Shown here one piece after another: positions 4,577-17,713 of a stretch of 20,547 bases of DNA (positions within the stretch are counted from its first letter, which is position 1; the number at the start of each line of letters is the position of its first letter). The position numbers were made by a program, and so were the translations under genes. Source of the DNA: a virus; IMG/VR virus record IMGVR_UViG_3300017987_000432, positions 1-20,547 of that record; one strand, 5' to 3'. The notes below the pieces were generated by a model. It searched no databases and was not told the origin of the DNA. It was given only the letters and a program-made list of their open reading frames with translations.

Positions 4577-5621
4577 TCTTGCAGAACGAATGTTGGACCT
4601 GGTAGCTTCGGGGAAAACTGCCGATGATGCTATCAATCAGATTATATCTGAACGAACAGCATCGAAAAAGGCTGTAAAGCAGAAGAAACCAGAAGCTGAA
4701 ACAAAAAAGAAGGAGACAATGCGGCAGGTTTATCGGTGTGTCAATCAGAGCGAGTGCGATTTCATGGTAATCAACACAGGCAAACCCGTCGATGTCTGCC
4801 CGAAGTGCGGATCTTTGACAATTATTAATGAAGAGGAAATTAAAGGAAACCCTGATTCAACCAATCCGGTTGTTCGGGATGCAGCTGTTACCGTTGTAAC
4901 AGAGGATGGAGTCAATCCGATACAGCAATACACTTTAGCTTTTTTACGACCGAGTGACAGATTTATCTTCTTAAATGTCATTCCGGATATGGCGGATCGA
5001 GGTGTGGAATACACCATTGTTCCAGCAAAGCGAGGATGGGTATCCTTTACAGATAATTTTGAGCGGACTTTTACTATTCCCTTATGTAGGGCCCTTATTT
5101 TCCCGGTGAAACTTCTAAGCAGTGAATATACTGACCCGAATAAGAAATTCATTTTGGGGGATAAGATATGCTGCGTGGAGTCTAACAGGGAAGGCAGAGT
5201 TGTTCGTATCAAAGGTAACAACGGTTATATGATCCGTTTTGATGATGAGCCCGAGAAACAGGTATGGAAGCCAGGATCCAGGATTAAACTGATTGATCGT
5301 GACGCAACAACCATTTCATACATTACTCAGAGTAATGGGAAGAACAATTGGACAGTGACTTATGGGGATTTCATGAAGGAGTGCAAGGATTTTTCCTCTG
5401 CGTTAAAACTTCTTAACTCCAGGAACCGACCAGCGTTCAACCGGTACTCAAAATTGTTGGCCATGAATAAGATCATTGACCTGGATACTGAAACCGTCGA
5501 ACTTCTGATTCAACTTGATCCCCGTATCTGGGGTAAGAAAGAGAATCTGGTTAAGCATGGATACATCCAAACAAACGATGAATTCGATGCCGTCAGGGAT
5601 AGATTTAACCTCCATCGATGA
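4566..5621 (+). CDS. zinc-ribbon protein with helical N-terminal motif
   Basis: This is a 351-residue protein whose ATG lies inside the end of the previous gene. Residues 4-28 (LAERMLDLVASGKTADDAIN) are a version of the helical motif seen in neighbouring proteins, followed by a Lys/Glu-rich linker. A zinc ribbon is formed by Cys58, Cys64, Cys78 and Cys81 (the latter pair in CPKCGS). Around residues 196-225 is a stretch that looks like a small SH3/KOW-type barrel (GDKICCV, EGRVVRI, GYMIRFDDE). The C-terminal third is helical. These parts suggest binding to nucleic acid or to another protein. Position just before the prohead protease suggests a head assembly role. Function not recognised. Confidence 0.75.
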   Translation: MADNLAERMLDLVASGKTADDAINQIISERTASKKAVKQKKPEAETKKKETMRQVYRCVNQSECDFMVINTGKPVDVCPKCGSLTIINEEEIKGNPDSTNPVVRDAAVTVVTEDGVNPIQQYTLAFLRPSDRFIFLNVIPDMADRGVEYTIVPAKRGWVSFTDNFERTFTIPLCRALIFPVKLLSSEYTDPNKKFILGDKICCVESNREGRVVRIKGNNGYMIRFDDEPEKQVWKPGSRIKLIDRDATTISYITQSNGKNNWTVTYGDFMKECKDFSSALKLLNSRNRPAFNRYSKLLAMNKIIDLDTETVELLIQLDPRIWGKKENLVKHGYIQTNDEFDAVRDRFNLHR

Positions 5622-5829
5622 CTGCATTATCATAAAAAGGGAACCCTTTGAGATAGAAGAGGTTGTCATAATTCTTCCTGGAGACAGAAATTATACGGTG
5701 ACATGGCTGCAGAAAGACTTCTTCCTGATGCGAATGAAACTTGAGATTCCGGAGATGGTCTTTGATGCAGTATTCAATTTCAATGAGGTTCACTGGTACC
5801 CAGTGTCGGAGAGGATGGATATCCAATAA
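5557..5829 (+). CDS. small protein of unknown function overlapping the preceding gene
   Basis: The frame ends at TAA 5827-5829. The region after 5621 is clearly coding in this frame, with beta-type sequence such as IEEVVIILPGDRNYTVTW. The start is unsure: ATGs at 5557, 5578 and 5587 all lie inside the upstream gene and none has a strong ribosome binding site. I give 5557 (90 residues), with a weak purine-rich AGAAAGAG about 13 bases before it; 5587 (80 residues) is as likely. No domain is recognised. It directly precedes the protease gene and may be a small structural protein. Confidence 0.6.
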   Translation: MDTSKQTMNSMPSGIDLTSIDDCIIIKREPFEIEEVVIILPGDRNYTVTWLQKDFFLMRMKLEIPEMVFDAVFNFNEVHWYPVSERMDIQ

Positions 5830-5841
5830 GAAAGGTGAATT

Positions 5842-8505
5842 ATGGAAAGAATGATTGATATTTTACCATTCAAATATCAGATACTGGAAGACAACAGAGA
5901 AAGCGGAAGGATGAAGGTTCGTGGTGTCTTTCAGAGAGAGGGGGTAAAGAATCAGAACGGACGGATCTATCCCTCTGGCCTCTTCGAGAGAAAAATTAAT
6001 GAGAGAATCTTCAAGGAGAGGATGGGTGCCCGTGGGATGTTCGGTGAGCTGGATCACCCATGTTTTCATCGTTCTGATTTCAGAGTATTAACCGTTAATG
6101 GCTGGAAAGAGTTTGTTGATGTTAAAGTGGGAGACCTAGTATGGTCGAGGAAAAATGGGTATGCGGTAAAGTCCACGGTTGAATCCATTATAGATGAAGC
6201 ATATGATGGTCCAATGTTCCATATTCACGGGAGAAGTATTGATGTTGGGGTTACTCCTGGGCATCGATTTATACTGGAAAAGCGGCCCGATAGGAACAGA
6301 GCTCAAGAAGAAGTAATGGTGAGAACTTCCGAGATTTTTGATAATCCCGGTAATTTTGCCCACCATGCCATACCTAAAAAAGCCAAATGGTTGATTGAAG
6401 ATGGTGAACATGTAGTTATTCCTGGGGTTGAAGTCCCCAGACTGAACAGCCATGCAAATGATGTATCTCAGGATCTCATACTTGATGCCAAGTTATTTTC
6501 TGCATTTATGGGAATCTACTTGGCTGAGGGATACTGTAAGACAGGGGATAGTGTATATACTGTAGGGATAAGTCAAATTAAGGGGTGGAGTAGAAAGTTC
6601 ATCTGGGATGAGATTTTATCAAGATTTCCATCAAATCTACAGTGGGGTGAAGAAGAATCTGGATTTTTTCTAACCGATGCCAGATTGCACGCCTATCTTC
6701 AAGTATTGGGGAATCAATATGATCGATATATTCCAGACAACATTAAGAGCCTCTCGCCGGACTGCTTGCATGAATTAATCTTCTGGTTCTGCATAGGGGA
6801 TGGGCGTATGGTTGCAAAAGATGCTGCTCATCGGGAAAAGATTGCTTCTAATGGAGTAACGTTAAAGGAGGCTATAAAAGATGATGTTAGGGGTGGGAAT
6901 GTAATAGCCCACACTCGTCAAGATCTCTTCTCTGTATCTCAGAGATTGATTAGAGACTTGCATGAATGTCTGGTTAAGTCTGGGGGGGCAGGTACACTAT
7001 CACAGATTAACCCTGACAAAGATTATGAGTTTGCTGGTCACATAATTAAAGCAGAGGATAAAGTACCTTTATTTCAATTGCATATCAGTCATTCCGACCA
7101 TATATGGCTGGATCCGAGGTTTATAAATATTGATCTGACCCACCACACGGGCAGAATTCATTGTTTGACTGTAACAAATGGATCTTTTTATGTAGAAATA
7201 GACGGTAAATCATTCTGGACTGGTAACTCCGATGGAAAAACCTCTCTGTCCCGCGTATCTCATATCATTACCGGTCTCTGGGTAGATAGGGACGGTATTG
7301 TCAACGGAGAGGCTGAAATACTCGACACACCTAGAGGGAAAATACTTCAAGAGCTTTTCCGAAGCGATACCCGTGTGGGCATCTCTTCCAGAGGATCAGG
7401 GACCCTTGGCAAGACTGAACCAGTTGTCCAGGATGACTACAAGCTTGAGACATTTGACTTTGTTGCTAATCCCTCTACGTTCGGAGCCTTTCCCGAAGCC
7501 ATCTATGAGAGTGTCGAATTTACCCCCGAAGAGGCTCAAATAAAACTGAGTGAAGTTAAGGATTATTTGAAGACCATCATTAATGAGATGGAAACCGATG
7601 ACCATCTACGTCTCGTAGAGTTTTCATCTCGGTTGAGTACTTATAAAAAGGAACTGAGTGTCATCAAGGAGACTGAAGAAAATCAGGGCTTGGAGGATGT
7701 TACTACTTTACTCCTTGAACAAATTGACAGTCTGTTGAGTATCATCACACCCAAAATCAACTATGGGGAGGAAGTCCCCAAAGGAGGAAGTGCTATGCCA
7801 AACGAAGTAGACATCAAAGAAAGCCTCTCTAATATTCAGCAGCAGTTGGCTTTCATGAATGAGGGCAACGAAGCCGCAGAAGCTATGGGCGATAAATATG
7901 CTGCAGCAGTTGCCATCATCGAGGAAATGAAGAACAGGTATGGTGACCTGTTGGAGGTCAAGGATTATGCCGAAAACTATGTTGAGGCCGCAAGTGATCT
8001 CATCGAGGGTCTCATCCAAAGACTGAACAATAAACGAAGTGAAATTCAGGCAGACATGGGGGAAGATGTAGGTACTGCGAAAGAGTTGCTCCAAGCCCTC
8101 GTAGAGAAATATCAGCATCTGTCCCGGATGTATGCCGGCCTTGAAGAAAGCTTTGAAGCATCCATTGCTTTGCTTGATGCAGTCATTGAACGCAACGAGA
8201 CAGCCGATATGGAGGATATGATTGACGAAGCTGTCAACAATCATCCTCTTGGCGAACAGATCGTCCCCCTTCTTGAGGGATGCCAGACCCCTCAGGAGAT
8301 GAGCGAGAAATTGCGAATCATTGATTCATTGACTGAGTCCATGGGTGTTGCCGATACTGGTTTTGACTATGAGCCATTACCCAGCTATGGCGGCGATGTA
8401 GAGATGTTGAATGAAGACACCTTTGGTGAATTCGAAACAGGGGAAGAACTCCACGAAGGTGCACAGGTAGCGAGAAAAGTTACTCGAAGGTTGAAATGGA
8501 GATAA
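5842..8505 (+). CDS. prohead protease-scaffold fusion precursor containing an intein
   Basis: The precursor is 887 residues; GAAAGGTGA lies just before its ATG. Removing the intein (residues 74-462) leaves a 498-residue protein. Its N-terminal part is a T4 gp21-type prohead serine protease: GVKNQNGRIYP, GELDHP with the likely catalytic His72, then after the intein SDGKTSLSRVSHIITG and VGISSRGSG with the likely catalytic Ser515 or Ser516. The protease part runs to roughly residue 560 of the precursor. The remaining 320 residues are acidic, long-helical and coiled-coil in character, as expected for an internal scaffold (T4 gp22 role). The protease would cleave scaffold and capsid proteins inside the prohead. 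An internal start at 7795 should yield the scaffold separately. It precedes the major capsid gene, as genes 21-22-23 do in T4. Confidence 0.9.
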   Translation: MERMIDILPFKYQILEDNRESGRMKVRGVFQREGVKNQNGRIYPSGLFERKINERIFKERMGARGMFGELDHPCFHRSDFRVLTVNGWKEFVDVKVGDLVWSRKNGYAVKSTVESIIDEAYDGPMFHIHGRSIDVGVTPGHRFILEKRPDRNRAQEEVMVRTSEIFDNPGNFAHHAIPKKAKWLIEDGEHVVIPGVEVPRLNSHANDVSQDLILDAKLFSAFMGIYLAEGYCKTGDSVYTVGISQIKGWSRKFIWDEILSRFPSNLQWGEEESGFFLTDARLHAYLQVLGNQYDRYIPDNIKSLSPDCLHELIFWFCIGDGRMVAKDAAHREKIASNGVTLKEAIKDDVRGGNVIAHTRQDLFSVSQRLIRDLHECLVKSGGAGTLSQINPDKDYEFAGHIIKAEDKVPLFQLHISHSDHIWLDPRFINIDLTHHTGRIHCLTVTNGSFYVEIDGKSFWTGNSDGKTSLSRVSHIITGLWVDRDGIVNGEAEILDTPRGKILQELFRSDTRVGISSRGSGTLGKTEPVVQDDYKLETFDFVANPSTFGAFPEAIYESVEFTPEEAQIKLSEVKDYLKTIINEMETDDHLRLVEFSSRLSTYKKELSVIKETEENQGLEDVTTLLLEQIDSLLSIITPKINYGEEVPKGGSAMPNEVDIKESLSNIQQQLAFMNEGNEAAEAMGDKYAAAVAIIEEMKNRYGDLLEVKDYAENYVEAASDLIEGLIQRLNNKRSEIQADMGEDVGTAKELLQALVEKYQHLSRMYAGLEESFEASIALLDAVIERNETADMEDMIDEAVNNHPLGEQIVPLLEGCQTPQEMSEKLRIIDSLTESMGVADTGFDYEPLPSYGGDVEMLNEDTFGEFETGEELHEGAQVARKVTRRLKWR
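6061..7227 (+). mobile_element. intein with LAGLIDADG homing endonuclease, in the prohead protease
   Basis: The 389-residue insertion runs from Cys74 to Asn462 of the precursor, with Ser463 as the +1 residue. Block A is CFHRSDFRVLTVNGW followed by VGDLV. Block B is GVTPGHRF, with T138 and H141. Two LAGLIDADG-type helices are visible: FSAFMGIYLAEGY (219-231, acidic E229) and LIFWFCIGDGRM (312-323, acidic D320). Block F is HCLTVTNGSFYVEIDG and the end is FWTGN, followed by SDGKTS. The penultimate residue is Gly461, not the usual His. Splicing joins GELDHP to SDGKTS, restoring a contiguous protease active site. The endonuclease would cut intein-free alleles and spread the element. Confidence 0.93.
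7780..7787 (+). promoter_or_regulatory. internal ribosome binding site for a separate scaffold protein
   Basis: AAAGGAGG lies inside the protease-scaffold gene, seven bases before an in-frame ATG at 7795. It is as strong as the best gene-start sites in the window, and such a match inside a coding frame is unlikely to be an accident. It falls at the junction of the protease part and the coiled-coil scaffold part. Confidence 0.8.
7795..8505 (+). CDS. nested scaffold protein (internal in-frame start)
   Basis: Translation from ATG 7795 (Met652 of the precursor) would give a 236-residue protein identical to the C-terminus of the fusion. It is acidic and almost wholly helical, with regular hydrophobic spacing (IEEMKNRYGDLLEVKDY; LIEGLIQRLNNKRSEI), and has a basic end (VARKVTRRLKWR). 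Scaffold proteins made from a start nested in a protease gene are known, for example lambda Nu3 within C. Here it would provide many scaffold copies per protease copy, and its production would not depend on intein splicing, because the intein lies upstream. Confidence 0.8.
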   Translation: MPNEVDIKESLSNIQQQLAFMNEGNEAAEAMGDKYAAAVAIIEEMKNRYGDLLEVKDYAENYVEAASDLIEGLIQRLNNKRSEIQADMGEDVGTAKELLQALVEKYQHLSRMYAGLEESFEASIALLDAVIERNETADMEDMIDEAVNNHPLGEQIVPLLEGCQTPQEMSEKLRIIDSLTESMGVADTGFDYEPLPSYGGDVEMLNEDTFGEFETGEELHEGAQVARKVTRRLKWR

Positions 8506-8546: not shown

Positions 8547-9418
8547 ATGACTTTTGATCCCCTCGTTGAGGATGTCCAGCAAAGAGGAGCTCAGCTCTGC
8601 GAGAGCACGCGGTGGAGACCTTATTGCGAAAACATCGAAGACGACTACAAACGTGTTGTAACCGCTTTCCTGCTGGAGAATGCCCATAGGAACTTCAAGG
8701 CAAGAAACCCGTTGTACGAAACGACAACGACCACTACACCAGGAATTGCAAACTTTGAGAAATTTGCGTTCCCGCTGATTCGAGCTATCTTCCCGAACCT
8801 GATCGCAACTGATCTGGTCAGTGTTCAGCCTATGCTGGGCCCTGCAAGTATGGTTTTCTACCTGCAGTTTGTTTATGGCTCCAATAAGGGTGCTATCCAG
8901 AGAGGCCGAGTGATTGAGGATAACCAGGGTTACACCCGCGCTGCTGATATGTACTCTTCGGAAGTTGTCGAGGAAGAGACACTCTCGGCTGGTAACGGGT
9001 CCCTCGGACCTTACACCGGGTCACTGTCCTATATCCCTGTACGGCCTGGTTCAGTTCAGATATTTACCCAGGATGATGTAGGTAATGCACGGACCCTGAC
9101 TGATGATGGTGCCGGTGGGCTATCCGGACATGGAACAGGAACCGTCAGTTATGCAACCGGTGACATCTCAGTGACCTTTACTGCCGGTCCTGGCGGTGCC
9201 AACATTCCGGCTTCGGAACTGATTACCATGACTTATGAATACAACATGGAAGGTAATCCGAACCTGCCGGAGATCGATCTGGTCCTGACCAGTTCACCAG
9301 TCATTGCACGACCCCGGAAACTGAGAAGTCGATGGTCAATGGAAGCTGCGGCCAACCTGCGGAATGTTCATGGGTTGGATGCAGAAGCAGAACTGATTGC
9401 AGTTCTTGCAGAAGAGCT
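8547..9418 (+). CDS. major capsid protein, exon 1 (T4 gp23-like)
   Basis: Exon 1 encodes residues 1-290 and two bases of codon 291. A strong TAAGGAGG (8534-8541) precedes the ATG, fitting high expression. The gp23 family is shown by FPNLIATDLVSVQPMLGP and VFYLQFVYGS near residues 85-112, and by SMEAAANLRNVHGLDAEAEL near the exon end. Residues about 152-233 form an inserted beta-rich domain (YIPVRPGSVQIFTQDD, TDDGAGGL, GTVSYATGDISVTF). Unspliced reading continues 76 bases to a stop at 9492-9494, giving an unrelated tail. Joined to 10446-10977 it makes 1404 bases, or 467 residues, a normal length for this family. The N-terminus may be a cleaved propeptide, as in T4 gp23. Confidence 0.9.
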
Positions 9419-9506
9419 TAACACAATGGGCTCCTTGGACGGAGACGTCCTCGACGAAGCTACTCAATTGCTGGAACCTCTTAAGGCAGCTTAAGACAAT
9501 CAGCAG

Positions 9507-9517
9507 CTGGAGAAAAG
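9507..9517 (+). promoter_or_regulatory. endonuclease ribosome binding site inside intron stem P6
   Basis: CTGGAGAAAAG directly precedes the endonuclease ATG at 9518 and contains its GGAG site. The same 11 bases pair with CTTTTCTCTAG at 10274-10284, ten Watson-Crick pairs and one G.U, forming P6 of the intron. In the folded intron the ribosome binding site is therefore base-paired, which should limit endonuclease translation and reduce conflict with splicing. Confidence 0.7.
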
Positions 9518-10384
9518 ATGGAAAAAGTAATCTGCCATATCTGCAAAGAATACAAAGCTCATAACCTTTTGAGCCATTTACGGTATGCCCACCCCGAGGT
9601 TGACCTCGCTGAGTATAAAAAGAGTCACCTGGTTGTTTCCTTCCATGCGAAGGAGCAAATGAGCAAAGCCCATAAGGATGTTCCCTTGAGTGAAGCACAC
9701 CGCAAAGGTATATCCAAGGCAAACAAAGGTAACCCCAAATGTGCAGCAGCCGCCCGAAGAACAAAGAACAGACTCGGGACAGAAACTTCACAGGAAGCTC
9801 GGGATAATATGAGACAGAGTGCTCTTGGTAAGATCATCACATTGGAACATGCCCAGAACATCTCAAAGGCTCAGATCGAGAGATATAAGGATCCTGAAGC
9901 CCGGAGGAAAGTATCGCTCGGTATGGCCAGGATGGTTGCAGATGGCAGGAGAAATTATAATCAGTATAAAACTGGTTACCATAGCGGCAGGCTGGGAAGA
10001 TTTTACTACAGGTCATCGTATGAATTACGATTCCTGGAGTTGATCGATACCGACCTGTCTGTGGTACAACTTCAGTACGAAGAGGTAGTGATACCTTATG
10101 GATCATACCAGCACTACGTGCCGGACTACTTGGTAACTCTTGCCAACGGGCAAAAGTTTATGGTAGAGATCAAACCTGAAAGACTCCTGAGTTACTGTGA
10201 GGAGAAGCATGAGGCTGCTCGTGCTTGGTGCTCCAGAAACAGTATGGTCTTTTTGGTTTTGGCTGAAGATGTCCTTTTCTCTAGTTCACAGACTGCGTCC
10301 CTGTGGGTAACTGCGGGGGCTACGGTAGCCGCTTCCTCTATTCAGGATAGAGAAGCTGAAGGTACAGTCGGGCCTCTACGGTGA
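9518..10384 (+). CDS. intron-encoded homing endonuclease (C2H2 finger, NUMOD3-like, PD-(D/E)XK)
   Basis: This is a 288-residue protein. The N-terminus has a zinc-finger pattern: Cys6, Cys9, His20, His25. Residues about 55-137 hold repeats like NUMOD3, a DNA-binding motif of homing endonucleases (SEAHRKGISKANKGNP; LEHAQNISKAQ; PEARRKVSLGM). The C-terminal domain fits a PD-(D/E)XK nuclease: RSSYELRF with Glu169, then YVPDYLV with Asp203, then VEIKP with Glu217 and Lys219. This is the TnsA/Vsr-type arrangement, not GIY-YIG or classical HNH. The gene sits in the P6 loop. Its last 35 or so codons run through intron elements R, P8, S and P9, so that tail is shaped by RNA structure. It should cleave intronless capsid genes near the insertion site. 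Confidence 0.88.
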   Translation: MEKVICHICKEYKAHNLLSHLRYAHPEVDLAEYKKSHLVVSFHAKEQMSKAHKDVPLSEAHRKGISKANKGNPKCAAAARRTKNRLGTETSQEARDNMRQSALGKIITLEHAQNISKAQIERYKDPEARRKVSLGMARMVADGRRNYNQYKTGYHSGRLGRFYYRSSYELRFLELIDTDLSVVQLQYEEVVIPYGSYQHYVPDYLVTLANGQKFMVEIKPERLLSYCEEKHEAARAWCSRNSMVFLVLAEDVLFSSSQTASLWVTAGATVAASSIQDREAEGTVGPLR

Positions 10385-10445
10385 CGTAGAGAAGGTAGGC
10401 AGAAATGACCTACCCGCCATTAAAAAATGGTTGTTAACATAAGTG

Positions 10446-10977
10446 CAAATTTGAGATTGACCGTGAGATAATCAGCGATCTGTATGCTATCGCAGGCGCC
10501 GGAGAAGTTGACTTCAACCGCTCCCTGCCTACTGGTGTATCCTGGACTGAACACAAACAGGCCTTCATTGATACTCTGGTTGAGGCCTCAAACCTGATCT
10601 TCTCGGCAACCAGACGGGCAACCGGTAACTGGGTTGTTGCCGGTGTTCAGGTTTGTAACATTATTGAGACTCTGCCCGGCTTCGTGCCTTCTGGCCTTGC
10701 TGGCGGGATGGGTGTTCAGAAGGTTGGAACTCTTCAGGGTAAATGGGATATCTATAAGGATCCCTATTTCGAACCCACAAAGTTCCTGGTTGGTTACAAG
10801 GGCGTGAGCTTCCTGGAAACAGGATATATCTACGCTCCTTATATCCCGCTGTATGAAACCCCGACTGTAACTCTCGACGATTTCGTCGTGCGGAAGGCAA
10901 TCGGTACTCAGTACGGTAAGAAAGTTGTCTGGAACAAGTTCTACTGCAAAGGATACGTCCACACAACAGCTCCATAA
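10446..10977 (+). CDS. major capsid protein, exon 2 (T4 gp23-like)
   Basis: Exon 2 begins with one base that completes codon 291 (Leu), then KFEIDREIISDLYAIAG, which continues the gp23 alignment after LAEEL of exon 1. It encodes 176 further residues to TAA 10975-10977. Conserved features include SATRRATGNWVVAG, KWDIYKDPYF, FLVGYKG and an end resembling other gp23 proteins (DFVVRKAIGTQYGKK). It has no start codon of its own before an internal ATG at 10708 and no ribosome binding site, so it is not an independent gene. It forms the C-terminal part of the capsid shell protein. Confidence 0.9.
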
Positions 10978-14686: not shown

Positions 14687-17600
14687 ATGGCAGTTTTTGT
14701 ATCCCCTGGTGTATATACCCGAGAAATAGACTTATCGATTTATGCACCGCAATTATCAACAAGTATTCTTGGTAACATCGGGACATCGACAAAGGGCCCA
14801 ATGAACCAGAAAGTCTATGTCAGCAACCACGCTCAGGCAATCCGGTATTTCGGTAACCCAAGTCCCAATCACCTGGCAAGTCTGGCACATCTGCAATTCT
14901 TTTCCAAGGGTAATCAAAGCTGGAGAGTCCGCATTGGTGACGGTACTGAAGATTATGCTTCGGTCGAGCTTCCTGTTGACGATGCACCGGCTATGATCAG
15001 AGGCACAGAGGAAGGTCCTTTTGCTCTGGTTGCTGCCAGTTATGGAGAATTGATCAGTTCCCAGATAGGCCCATTTAATCCTGTGCCATCAGTTCCCGGA
15101 AATAACATTGGCTTGGATGCAGTTCCCAATACTGGTTTTTGGGCAGCTGTGCTCAATGCGGAATTTAGAGTTAACTTTACTGACCGCGATGGGGCTTCTT
15201 CGTTCTTTGATGTTATTGGCCTGGATATCTCAACGGCTGCAGATGAAACTGCTGTTGCTGCTCTCATGGAGGCAGCTGTCCAAGTCACCTACCCATCAGT
15301 CCAGATAATCTGGAACTTTGTTGGGCCGGCTGGTTATTTTGAGGCCTATACAGGTGATGAACATTGTGGATCCAATGCAGCTATCTCCATTGTTGCAGTC
15401 CCCGGAGGAATAGGCACGGATATTTCAGGTGCCGGGTTCACCGAATTCTCCACGGGAAGTACCAGCAATGGAACGGATGGGACCGACAGTCTTCTCCTTG
15501 AAGATGAGACCTACGGTATTCAACTTGTGAAGCTGCCTGCAGGTCCGTTGACTGCAGACCAGGTTGCAGATGAAATTAACAATCAAACAAACGGCATCAA
15601 TGCCTTTGAGGAACCTGCTGGTGCCGGGCAGTATTACGTAAAGATTCAGACCGATCAGCTCGGTTCAACCGGGTTCATTCGAGTCTTGGCATTAACCTCC
15701 ACAATGAATGCATATTCAGTGCTTGGTTTCAATGGCCCCTATCCCATGGAAGATTATGGGACTGATGGCACGGTTGCCCTGAACATCTGGGTAAATCCCT
15801 GGGGCTGGTACAGATCAAATGACAGTTCGGCCAATCTCAGCAACATGCAGGCAGTTACCAATGGTTCGATCAGTATTGCTTTGGATGGTGTGGGTGCTCT
15901 TGGTGGCGTTGTTCCCGAGGATGTGACAGGGATTGATCTTTCCGCAGCGACAGATATGGACGAAGTTGCGTTGGAAATCCAGACAGCCATCAATGCTGCC
16001 TTTGCTGCGATTCCAAGTACAAAGACAGTCATGGTTACGTGGAGTAACCCTTACTTCTATTTTGTCAGTTTCGACACCTCATACACCGACATTGGGCCGG
16101 ATTCTACTATTGCTTTCGGGGCCCCCGGTGGTGGAACCAATCTGCTTCAGTCTCACCTTGTTGCTCCTGGTGGGGCTCCAACTGATGGCCTTGATATTCA
16201 GCAGTTCCTGCTGACCCCAGGGTCTACTACACTCAGCCAGATCATTGCCGACCTTGCCGGGCTTGTTGACGCGGAAGCCTCAGCCTACAAAGAGGTCCTG
16301 CAGATTGCCACTACTATGGACGGCCCAGCTGCCTTCCTCATGGTTGATGCAGCCAGCACAGCCGATACTCCATTGGGATTGGATAACTCCGGGCACTGGG
16401 GAACACCGGTCGGTGCGGCAACTGCAATTGCTTACGCCCCAACTCAGGGGACCGACGGCAATAACCTCAGCCTGGTTGTCAGTGAGGCTTATCAGAGCAC
16501 TTTACACAGTCAATGGGTATCGGACAATCCTCTGGAAGACGAGGAAGATTCTCCTTACTATGAATTCCGTGAGGCTGTAAAGTTTGATGTGTTCTGGAGT
16601 ACCTACAAAGTGGGCAGCTACGACAATCTGGTCTTCGATGATCCGCAGAGCGAAAATTATTTTGAGACAATTCTTGGGACCCGGGCAAGCTCCTGGAACT
16701 CGCAACGAACTATATTATGTGAAGACCAAGGTCTCGGCCTCCCCCCAGCAGCAGGGACATACAGCTTGTCTGGTGGGTTAAATGGCGATGGTTCACTGTC
16801 GGCAGCGGATTATATTGGGGTTGTTGCTGATCCAAGCGGTAATCCTACCGGCCTTCAGATCTTCAGGAATGCGGAAACCCTCGATGTCAATATCATAATT
16901 ATCCCCGGTGTGTCCGATGATGCAGTTATTGCAGCCATGCTGGAGCTCTGCGAGTACCGTGGGGATTGTATGTGCATAATTGATCCCCCACTTGGTCTTG
17001 ATGGCCCCCAAGGCGCTGTCGACTGGTCAAACAGGCAGGGGACATATTCACCTGGTCAGCCAATCAATTCGAGCTATGGTGCAATTTATTGGCCCTGGAT
17101 CAAGGTCTATGATTCATACAATGAGGTTGAGGTCTGGACCCCCCCATCGGGGCATGCTGCTGCGGTTTATGCCTATACAGATTACATTGCAGATCCGTGG
17201 TGGGCACCTGCTGGTCTGAATCGAGCCCACATTCTGCCGGCCCTTGAGATTGAAATGTCTCCTTCTCAGGGTGACCGTGACTTGATGTATGGCTATCCCA
17301 ATGTGGTTAACCCGATTGTCAATTTCTTCCCGGATGGGGTTACCATCTGGGGGCAGAAGACAGCCCAGAGGAAACCATCGGCTACGGATAGAGTCAATGT
17401 CAGACGGCTCCTGCTGTATGCCAAGAAACTGGTATCTACTGTAGTCAAGTATCTCACCTTTGATCCGAATGATGATATTACCAGACGGCAGTTTGTTAAC
17501 CTGGTTACCCCAATCTTCTCGGATATACAATCCAGGAGAGGTGTCTATGAATTTCGGGTTATTTGTGACGAGACAACTAATCCACCTGAAGTCATCGATC

Positions 17601-17713
17601 GAAATGAGATGCATGGTCGGATCTATCTGAAACCAACAAAAGCGGCAGAGATTATCCTGGTAGACTTTGTAATTGTGTCAACCGGGGCATCCTTTGACGA
17701 AATAGAGTACTAG
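14687..17713 (+). CDS. tail sheath protein, unusually large
   Basis: This is a 1008-residue protein with AAGGAGG (14672-14678) before the ATG. The N-terminus (VFVSPGVYTREIDLSIYAP) is the classical sheath start, followed by KGPMNQKVYVSNHAQAIRYF. The C-terminal 250 residues are the conserved sheath core: AAVYAYTD, VNVRRLLLYAKKLV, YLTFDPNDDITRRQFVNLV and a final MHGRIYLKPTKAAEIIL strand region. The protein forms the contractile outer tube that drives injection. T4 gp18 is 659 residues. The extra length lies in the middle, where two related blocks (about 174-352 and 405-570) look like a tandem duplication. These would probably lie on the tail surface. Confidence 0.92.
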   Translation: MAVFVSPGVYTREIDLSIYAPQLSTSILGNIGTSTKGPMNQKVYVSNHAQAIRYFGNPSPNHLASLAHLQFFSKGNQSWRVRIGDGTEDYASVELPVDDAPAMIRGTEEGPFALVAASYGELISSQIGPFNPVPSVPGNNIGLDAVPNTGFWAAVLNAEFRVNFTDRDGASSFFDVIGLDISTAADETAVAALMEAAVQVTYPSVQIIWNFVGPAGYFEAYTGDEHCGSNAAISIVAVPGGIGTDISGAGFTEFSTGSTSNGTDGTDSLLLEDETYGIQLVKLPAGPLTADQVADEINNQTNGINAFEEPAGAGQYYVKIQTDQLGSTGFIRVLALTSTMNAYSVLGFNGPYPMEDYGTDGTVALNIWVNPWGWYRSNDSSANLSNMQAVTNGSISIALDGVGALGGVVPEDVTGIDLSAATDMDEVALEIQTAINAAFAAIPSTKTVMVTWSNPYFYFVSFDTSYTDIGPDSTIAFGAPGGGTNLLQSHLVAPGGAPTDGLDIQQFLLTPGSTTLSQIIADLAGLVDAEASAYKEVLQIATTMDGPAAFLMVDAASTADTPLGLDNSGHWGTPVGAATAIAYAPTQGTDGNNLSLVVSEAYQSTLHSQWVSDNPLEDEEDSPYYEFREAVKFDVFWSTYKVGSYDNLVFDDPQSENYFETILGTRASSWNSQRTILCEDQGLGLPPAAGTYSLSGGLNGDGSLSAADYIGVVADPSGNPTGLQIFRNAETLDVNIIIIPGVSDDAVIAAMLELCEYRGDCMCIIDPPLGLDGPQGAVDWSNRQGTYSPGQPINSSYGAIYWPWIKVYDSYNEVEVWTPPSGHAAAVYAYTDYIADPWWAPAGLNRAHILPALEIEMSPSQGDRDLMYGYPNVVNPIVNFFPDGVTIWGQKTAQRKPSATDRVNVRRLLLYAKKLVSTVVKYLTFDPNDDITRRQFVNLVTPIFSDIQSRRGVYEFRVICDETTNPPEVIDRNEMHGRIYLKPTKAAEIILVDFVIVSTGASFDEIEY

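Follow-up and report, generated by a model that had tools for sequence, protein, structure and literature searches.

What is a block of 389 residues doing inside the prohead protease of a virus, between the two catalytic residues of the enzyme? The window, by which we mean the whole 20,547-nt stretch of viral DNA analysed here, encodes a T4 gp21-type protease whose reading frame runs through such a block, and the initial annotation of this locus had proposed that the block acts as a built-in timer for head maturation. Our analysis points elsewhere: the block is very probably a class 1 intein that is able to splice, carries an intact homing endonuclease of the LAGLIDADG type and resides as a selfish mobile element in a gp21-type protease gene.

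The protease gene and its intein

The interrupted gene immediately precedes the major capsid gene, and its product matches Peptidase_S77 (Pfam; E 5.2e-11) and PHROG 207, the head maturation protease family (E 1.3e-37). A profile of the spliced protease finds T4 gp21 (5jbl) at E 5.1e-17 in hmmsearch. In this comparison His72 falls on position 104 of the 5jbl chain and Ser515 on position 159, both of which are Ala in the structure and which we infer to be H85A and S140A, assuming a tag offset of 19. His72 is invariant in the homologues, one set of which was itself selected on the GE..HP motif. The His and Ser motifs, the sequence match and the fold match described below together place the window protease with T4 gp21 in Peptidase S77. 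The alignment with T4 gp21 also supports the earlier claim that the insertion follows the catalytic His after a single residue and divides it from the catalytic Ser; the borders and length given for the block by the initial annotation turned out to be exact to the base (Table 1).

Table 1. Position and key residues of the prohead protease gene and its predicted intein in the window
Feature	Coordinates	Strand	Evidence or remark
Prohead protease ORF, T4 gp21-type, 887 aa	5842-8505	+	intein included in frame
N-extein, aa 1-73, last residues GELDHP	5842..6060	+	PHROG 207/3014 and S77 matches; gap-free alignment to intein-free gp21 homologues
Catalytic His72 codon (intein position -2)	6055..6057	+	alignment to T4 gp21 His position (Ala in 5jbl)
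Class 1 LAGLIDADG intein, 389 aa, Cys74-Asn462, TGT...AAC, between GELDHP and SDGKTS	6061..7227	+	in-frame codon block; +1 residue is Ser463
Block A, nucleophile Cys1, LTVNGW	6061..6105	+	Cys1 and Gly14 invariant in 28 inteins
Block B, GRSIDVGVTPGHRFIL, Thr65 and His68 (T-x-x-H)	6229..6276	+	both invariant in 28
LAGLIDADG motif 1, FMGIYLAEG, acid E156	6505..6531	+	acid is E in 26/28, D in 2/28; helix in model
LAGLIDADG motif 2, FWFCIGDG, acid D247	6781..6804	+	GDG (G246-D247-G248) invariant in 28
Block F, GRIHCLTVTNGSFYV, IHCLTV, Cys at F:4	7150..7194	+	Cys368 invariant in 28
Block G, GKSFWTGN then S, terminal Asn389, penultimate Gly	7204..7227	+	Gly388-Asn389 invariant in 28
C-extein, Ser463 (+1) to end; rest of protease and scaffold-like C-terminal extension	7228..8502	+	S77 and PHROG 207 matches
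Catalytic Ser515 codon, GISSRG	7384..7386	+	alignment to T4 gp21 Ser position; invariant in alignment A7

Intein blocks A, B, F and G and two LAGLIDADG helices had been read from the letters of the window, and all of them are confirmed here, with key residues that vary little or not at all across 28 homologous inteins and with a matching fold. The window element has the residues of a class 1 intein (Cys1, Thr and His in block B, a terminal Asn and a +1 Ser) and is assigned to this class by its Cys1, protein splicing being the activity predicted from its sequence. Across the family the +1 residue is Ser or Cys and the terminal Asn is universal; the residue preceding the window intein (-1) is Pro73. 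The usual but non-obligatory penultimate His of class 1 is absent, its place being taken by Gly388 in 28/28 inteins. This does not disqualify the element from class 1, since some splicing-competent phage class 1 inteins have a penultimate Gly, and replacing it with His slows one of them, according to a study of mycobacteriophages (PMC5050341). Neither this Gly nor the -1 Pro had been pointed out in the initial annotation. We also considered class 3, in which a Trp-Cys-Thr triplet is found and the reaction starts from the F:4 Cys, and rejected it: a Cys at F:4 and a Thr at G:5 are there, but the window has Phe at B:12, none of the 28 inteins has Trp at this position, and Cys1 is present.

A check against Pfam, proposed in the initial annotation, gave a divided answer. 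The window intein alone has no intein match in Pfam or NCBIfam, and a phmmer search of the PDB, for which the query was the window intein minus its first Cys, returned no match; on the other hand, same-motif homologues score above the Pfam gathering thresholds for Intein_splicing (L026, L035) and for LAGLIDADG_3 (L003, L033, L035). The assignment of the window intein therefore rests on its relatives and on its fold.

An AF2 model of the window intein, made with 22 aligned family members, reached a pLDDT of 90.3 and a pTM of 0.90, and its best matches in the PDB are TliVMA (the best, Foldseek E 2.9e-15), PhoVMA and PI-SceI. The HINT fold is likewise recovered in the model of the precursor (VIA Z 24.5, rmsd 4.8, 311 residues). 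The endonuclease part matches I-DmoI (E 1e-5, Z 13.4), and this fold, together with two helices that carry the acids E156 and D247, identifies a LAGLIDADG homing endonuclease for which DNA cutting is predicted. When the precursor is modelled with AF2, its exteins adopt a gp21-like fold with the intein looped out (VIA Z 15.7, rmsd 3.0 over 138 residues against 5jbl). Since the fold is kept in this model, inactivity of the precursor would need a change in active-site geometry or a steric block; given the proximity of the intein to the active site, an inactive unspliced precursor is plausible.

Relatives, insertion points and the homing cycle

Viral contigs searched directly with the window protein gave no relatives. 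Relatives were found by scanning viral contigs with an intein profile and LAGLIDADG patterns, which are blind to mini-inteins, and then by junction-pattern scans; about 50 viral contigs carry a homologous intein in the GELDHP motif. This total includes the window itself and two phages from the public collection, SRB7757, a cultured phage on Nitratidesulfovibrio (PV062637), and a 484-kb uncultured phage (LR756508); both of these records are unannotated. In the tree, 24 distinct protease inteins form one clade (100/99.8), apart from inteins of PurD, NrdD, terminase and portal, genes of the kind (names read from sequences) in which the host genomes hold their only, and distant, relatives of the intein.

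Within this one clade the insertion point is not fixed. Three points occur within six codons, written here with a caret: HP^ in the window and most others, HPx^ in L002, L003, L020-L025 and L033, and GE^ in L030 (3992-5104), where the +1 Cys replaces the native Leu/Met of GELDHP and the mature protein would read GECNHP. The shift from HP^ to HPx^ is real, because the mature proteins have the same length across the junction. At least five changes of insertion site are required on the intein tree, and a single clade of HPx^ inteins (site b) was rejected (p-AU 6e-7). Endonuclease swapping was rejected as the source of the shift, in that L019 (HP^) stays with the HPx^ inteins L020/L022/L023 in trees of both the splicing part and the endonuclease part. 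In SDGK-type proteases Ser is the first residue after HP and in other lineages it lies one codon further on, while cyanophage-like carriers have Cys where four compared intein-free cyanophage proteases have Asp; the insertion position may be guided by the +1 residue. The -1 residue at HPx^ inteins is Asp, Ser, Glu or Ala.

The motif into which these inteins are inserted is highly conserved. G, E, H and P of GE..HP are invariant and the next position ranks 132/161 in conservation, figures that are inflated by the use of the GE..HP motif in the search pattern and filter; the same four residues are also kept in proteases found independently, namely those of four cyanophages, one Flavobacterium phage and one Bacillus phage.

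Occupied and empty genes can be compared directly. In DNA, the intein-bearing L018 and the intein-free L091 are 96.8% and 97.6% identical across the roughly 3 kb that flank the locus on each side; the intein is exactly where their alignment breaks. Five synonymous differences fall in the 19 nt after this junction, followed by 0 in 71 nt, against a background of 1.4% (clustering p ~2e-5, for a stretch picked post hoc), as would be expected of a short co-conversion tract. Another carrier, L014, has several empty relatives whose flanks are 88-93% identical, and L048, a 205-kb contig that is the window's nearest relative, is intein-free with the same gene order, its exteins being 69% identical in the best segment. 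After removal of the intein, exteins align without gaps to intein-free gp21 homologues; inspection of such homologues, which had also been proposed as a check, found the block cleanly absent, so that the refuting condition set there, homologous proteases that retain it when mature, was not borne out. The L020 intein groups with that of L022 (97/95) but the L020 exteins do not, suggesting that this intein moved horizontally.

Inteins in other states were also found. The L186 intein has lost its LAGLIDADG residues, which marks a decayed endonuclease, while L146 and L161 (contigs 99.65% identical) carry a clean 165-aa mini-intein from which the nuclease is gone and in which all splicing residues are kept. 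A single-pattern scan found at least 120 stretches with an intein-free GELDHPxDG, compared with 21 for GELDHPC[L/F]. Occupied, decayed, endonuclease-free and empty states thus coexist, and, judged from these sequences, all stages of the homing cycle are present.

Selfish homing or a timer for head maturation

The conserved residues and the fold suggest how a selfish intein would operate at this site. The Pro73-Cys74 bond would be attacked by Cys1, the N-extein would pass to Ser463 (+1) and Asn462 would cyclise, leaving a ligated protease of 498 aa with the exact native sequence GELDHP-SDGKTS. In a co-infected cell, the freed endonuclease would then cleave the gp21 gene of a phage lacking the intein at the GE-x-D-H-P codons, and repair of the cut gene would copy the intein in. 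Such a site would be favoured for two reasons: the protease has no freedom to change G, E, H or P and so evade the cut, and variation begins only with the residue after them, which in most cases is already the Ser that must serve as +1 nucleophile. A scattered distribution, excision that is clean at the sequence level and a target made of invariant codons are in keeping with a selfish element (PMC2814812), and delayed activation of the protease, if any, would be a side effect.

Two versions of a timer have to be weighed against this explanation. In the first, which we regard as quite unlikely, the -1 Pro of the HP^ clade slows the first step so that the precursor outlasts prohead assembly and active protease appears late, with the HPx^ and GE^ inteins as faster members of a timer series. 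The second, broader one, closer to the initial annotation, has the intein retained for its slow or conditional splicing, which would hold the protease back until the prohead is assembled; this too we consider quite unlikely. The Mth RIR1 intein, which splices poorly in E. coli, is a natural precedent for a -1 Pro. Here, the insertion adjoins the catalytic His, and Pro is the -1 residue in all HP^ copies, the nuclease-free mini-intein included. In another intein this residue is reported to reduce the first step, N-terminal cleavage, about 1000-fold (PMC8891592), and by analogy the window intein may be slow or specially adapted. Timing does matter for such an enzyme, as T4 gp21 is active within the assembled prohead core (PMC9026906). 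At the same time, a regulatory intein should be conserved in its presence, and this one is polymorphic between the near-identical L018 and L091, missing from the nearest relative of the window and from many others, and found in only 2 distinct phages (3 records) among 575 phage records matching the protease protein. Nor is its position in the protease special: the mean distance between native inteins and active-site residues is 8.3 A (PMC3359363). As for conditional splicing, a review from 2014 found no physiological example (PMC4031507). The pairing of -1 Pro at HP^ with other -1 residues at HPx^ offers a ready comparison, in which we see no evidence of selection for delay. The built-in timer is therefore left unsupported by near-identical phages with and without the intein, by an intein-free nearest relative and by a site that suits a selfish element.

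It is highly improbable that the Hint domain cleaves without splicing, leaving a protease that works as a pair of separate, associated chains. Intein-like domains whose main activity is cleavage do exist in bacteria, and the penultimate residue in this family is Gly, not His. However, the +1 Ser or Cys and the terminal Asn are retained throughout, a single small domain would have its His on one chain and its Ser on the other, and the phage class 1 inteins with a penultimate Gly mentioned above do splice. The block might instead belong permanently to a diverged protease as an in-frame domain, or be an intein that has died in a defective phage; this reading draws on the missing Pfam match of the window intein itself and is extremely improbable in the face of fully intact splicing residues, clean empty-site homologues and homologues that pass the Pfam intein cut-offs.

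Neighbouring elements and known systems

Other interruptions were seen in these genomes. In the window, the gp23-like major capsid gene (8547-10977) is split into exon 1, ending at about 9421 (AEELNT), and exon 2, starting at about 10435 (EIDREIISDLY); between them lie a match to the group I intron family that stays below threshold (RF00028, E 0.16, 9409-10391) and, within this candidate intron, an ORF for a TnsA-like/NUMOD3-like endonuclease (9518-10384). With an intein in the protease gene and an endonuclease-bearing split in the capsid gene, the protease and its presumed substrate would thus both carry mobile elements. In the stretch 4604-6504, L048 has an endonuclease insertion at apparently the same capsid-gene site and a second interruption at about 4876-5157, and in Bacillus phage SP-15 (L005, 4558-7075) an annotated endonuclease likewise divides the major capsid gene. 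In LR756508 a portal-like protein encoded upstream of the protease intein (L003, 3-2423) contains a second intein, apparently of the HNH type. The tail sheath protein of the window (14687-17713), with 1008 aa, is about twice the length of its profile (496 positions) and has a large internal insertion. In L152 the frame of the intein-bearing protease is broken inside the endonuclease motif, through assembly error or true decay, and in its near relative L150 it is not.

In the gp21 intein family the homing cycle can be followed clearly at a single catalytic motif, with an insertion point that moves by one to a few codons within a single intein clade. The family opens to testing the questions of how an intein allele reaches a neighbouring codon, and of whether splicing of a natural intein can be slowed by an unfavourable -1 Pro to a degree that matters for virus assembly. 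Class 1 LAGLIDADG inteins are a known kind, and we found no earlier report, in the open-access papers searched, of an intein in a gp21-type prohead protease.

Compared with T4 gp21 (Peptidase S77, 5jbl), the window protease shares the extein fold and the catalytic His/Ser motifs; the T4 chain has no intein, and the window protein is extended at its C-terminus by a long scaffold-like region. The VMA-type class 1 LAGLIDADG inteins TliVMA, PhoVMA and PI-SceI resemble the window intein in their HINT domain with an inserted two-motif LAGLIDADG endonuclease, and in Cys1, the block B Thr/His and the terminal Asn. The window intein differs from them in its phage head protease host, its penultimate Gly and its Cys at F:4, and identity is only 8-15% in the Foldseek matches. 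The mycobacteriophage inteins with a non-His penultimate residue are likewise phage class 1 inteins, some of them with a penultimate Gly, and the endonuclease activity of the terminase inteins among them has been tested; those considered here sit in terminase, RDF and other genes, none in a gp21-type protease (PMC5050341). The gp21 inteins of SRB7757 (PV062637) and LR756508 are homologous to the window intein (35-36% identity) and occupy the same protease motif, but one codon later (HPx^S versus HP^S) and with Ser or Asp, not Pro, at -1.
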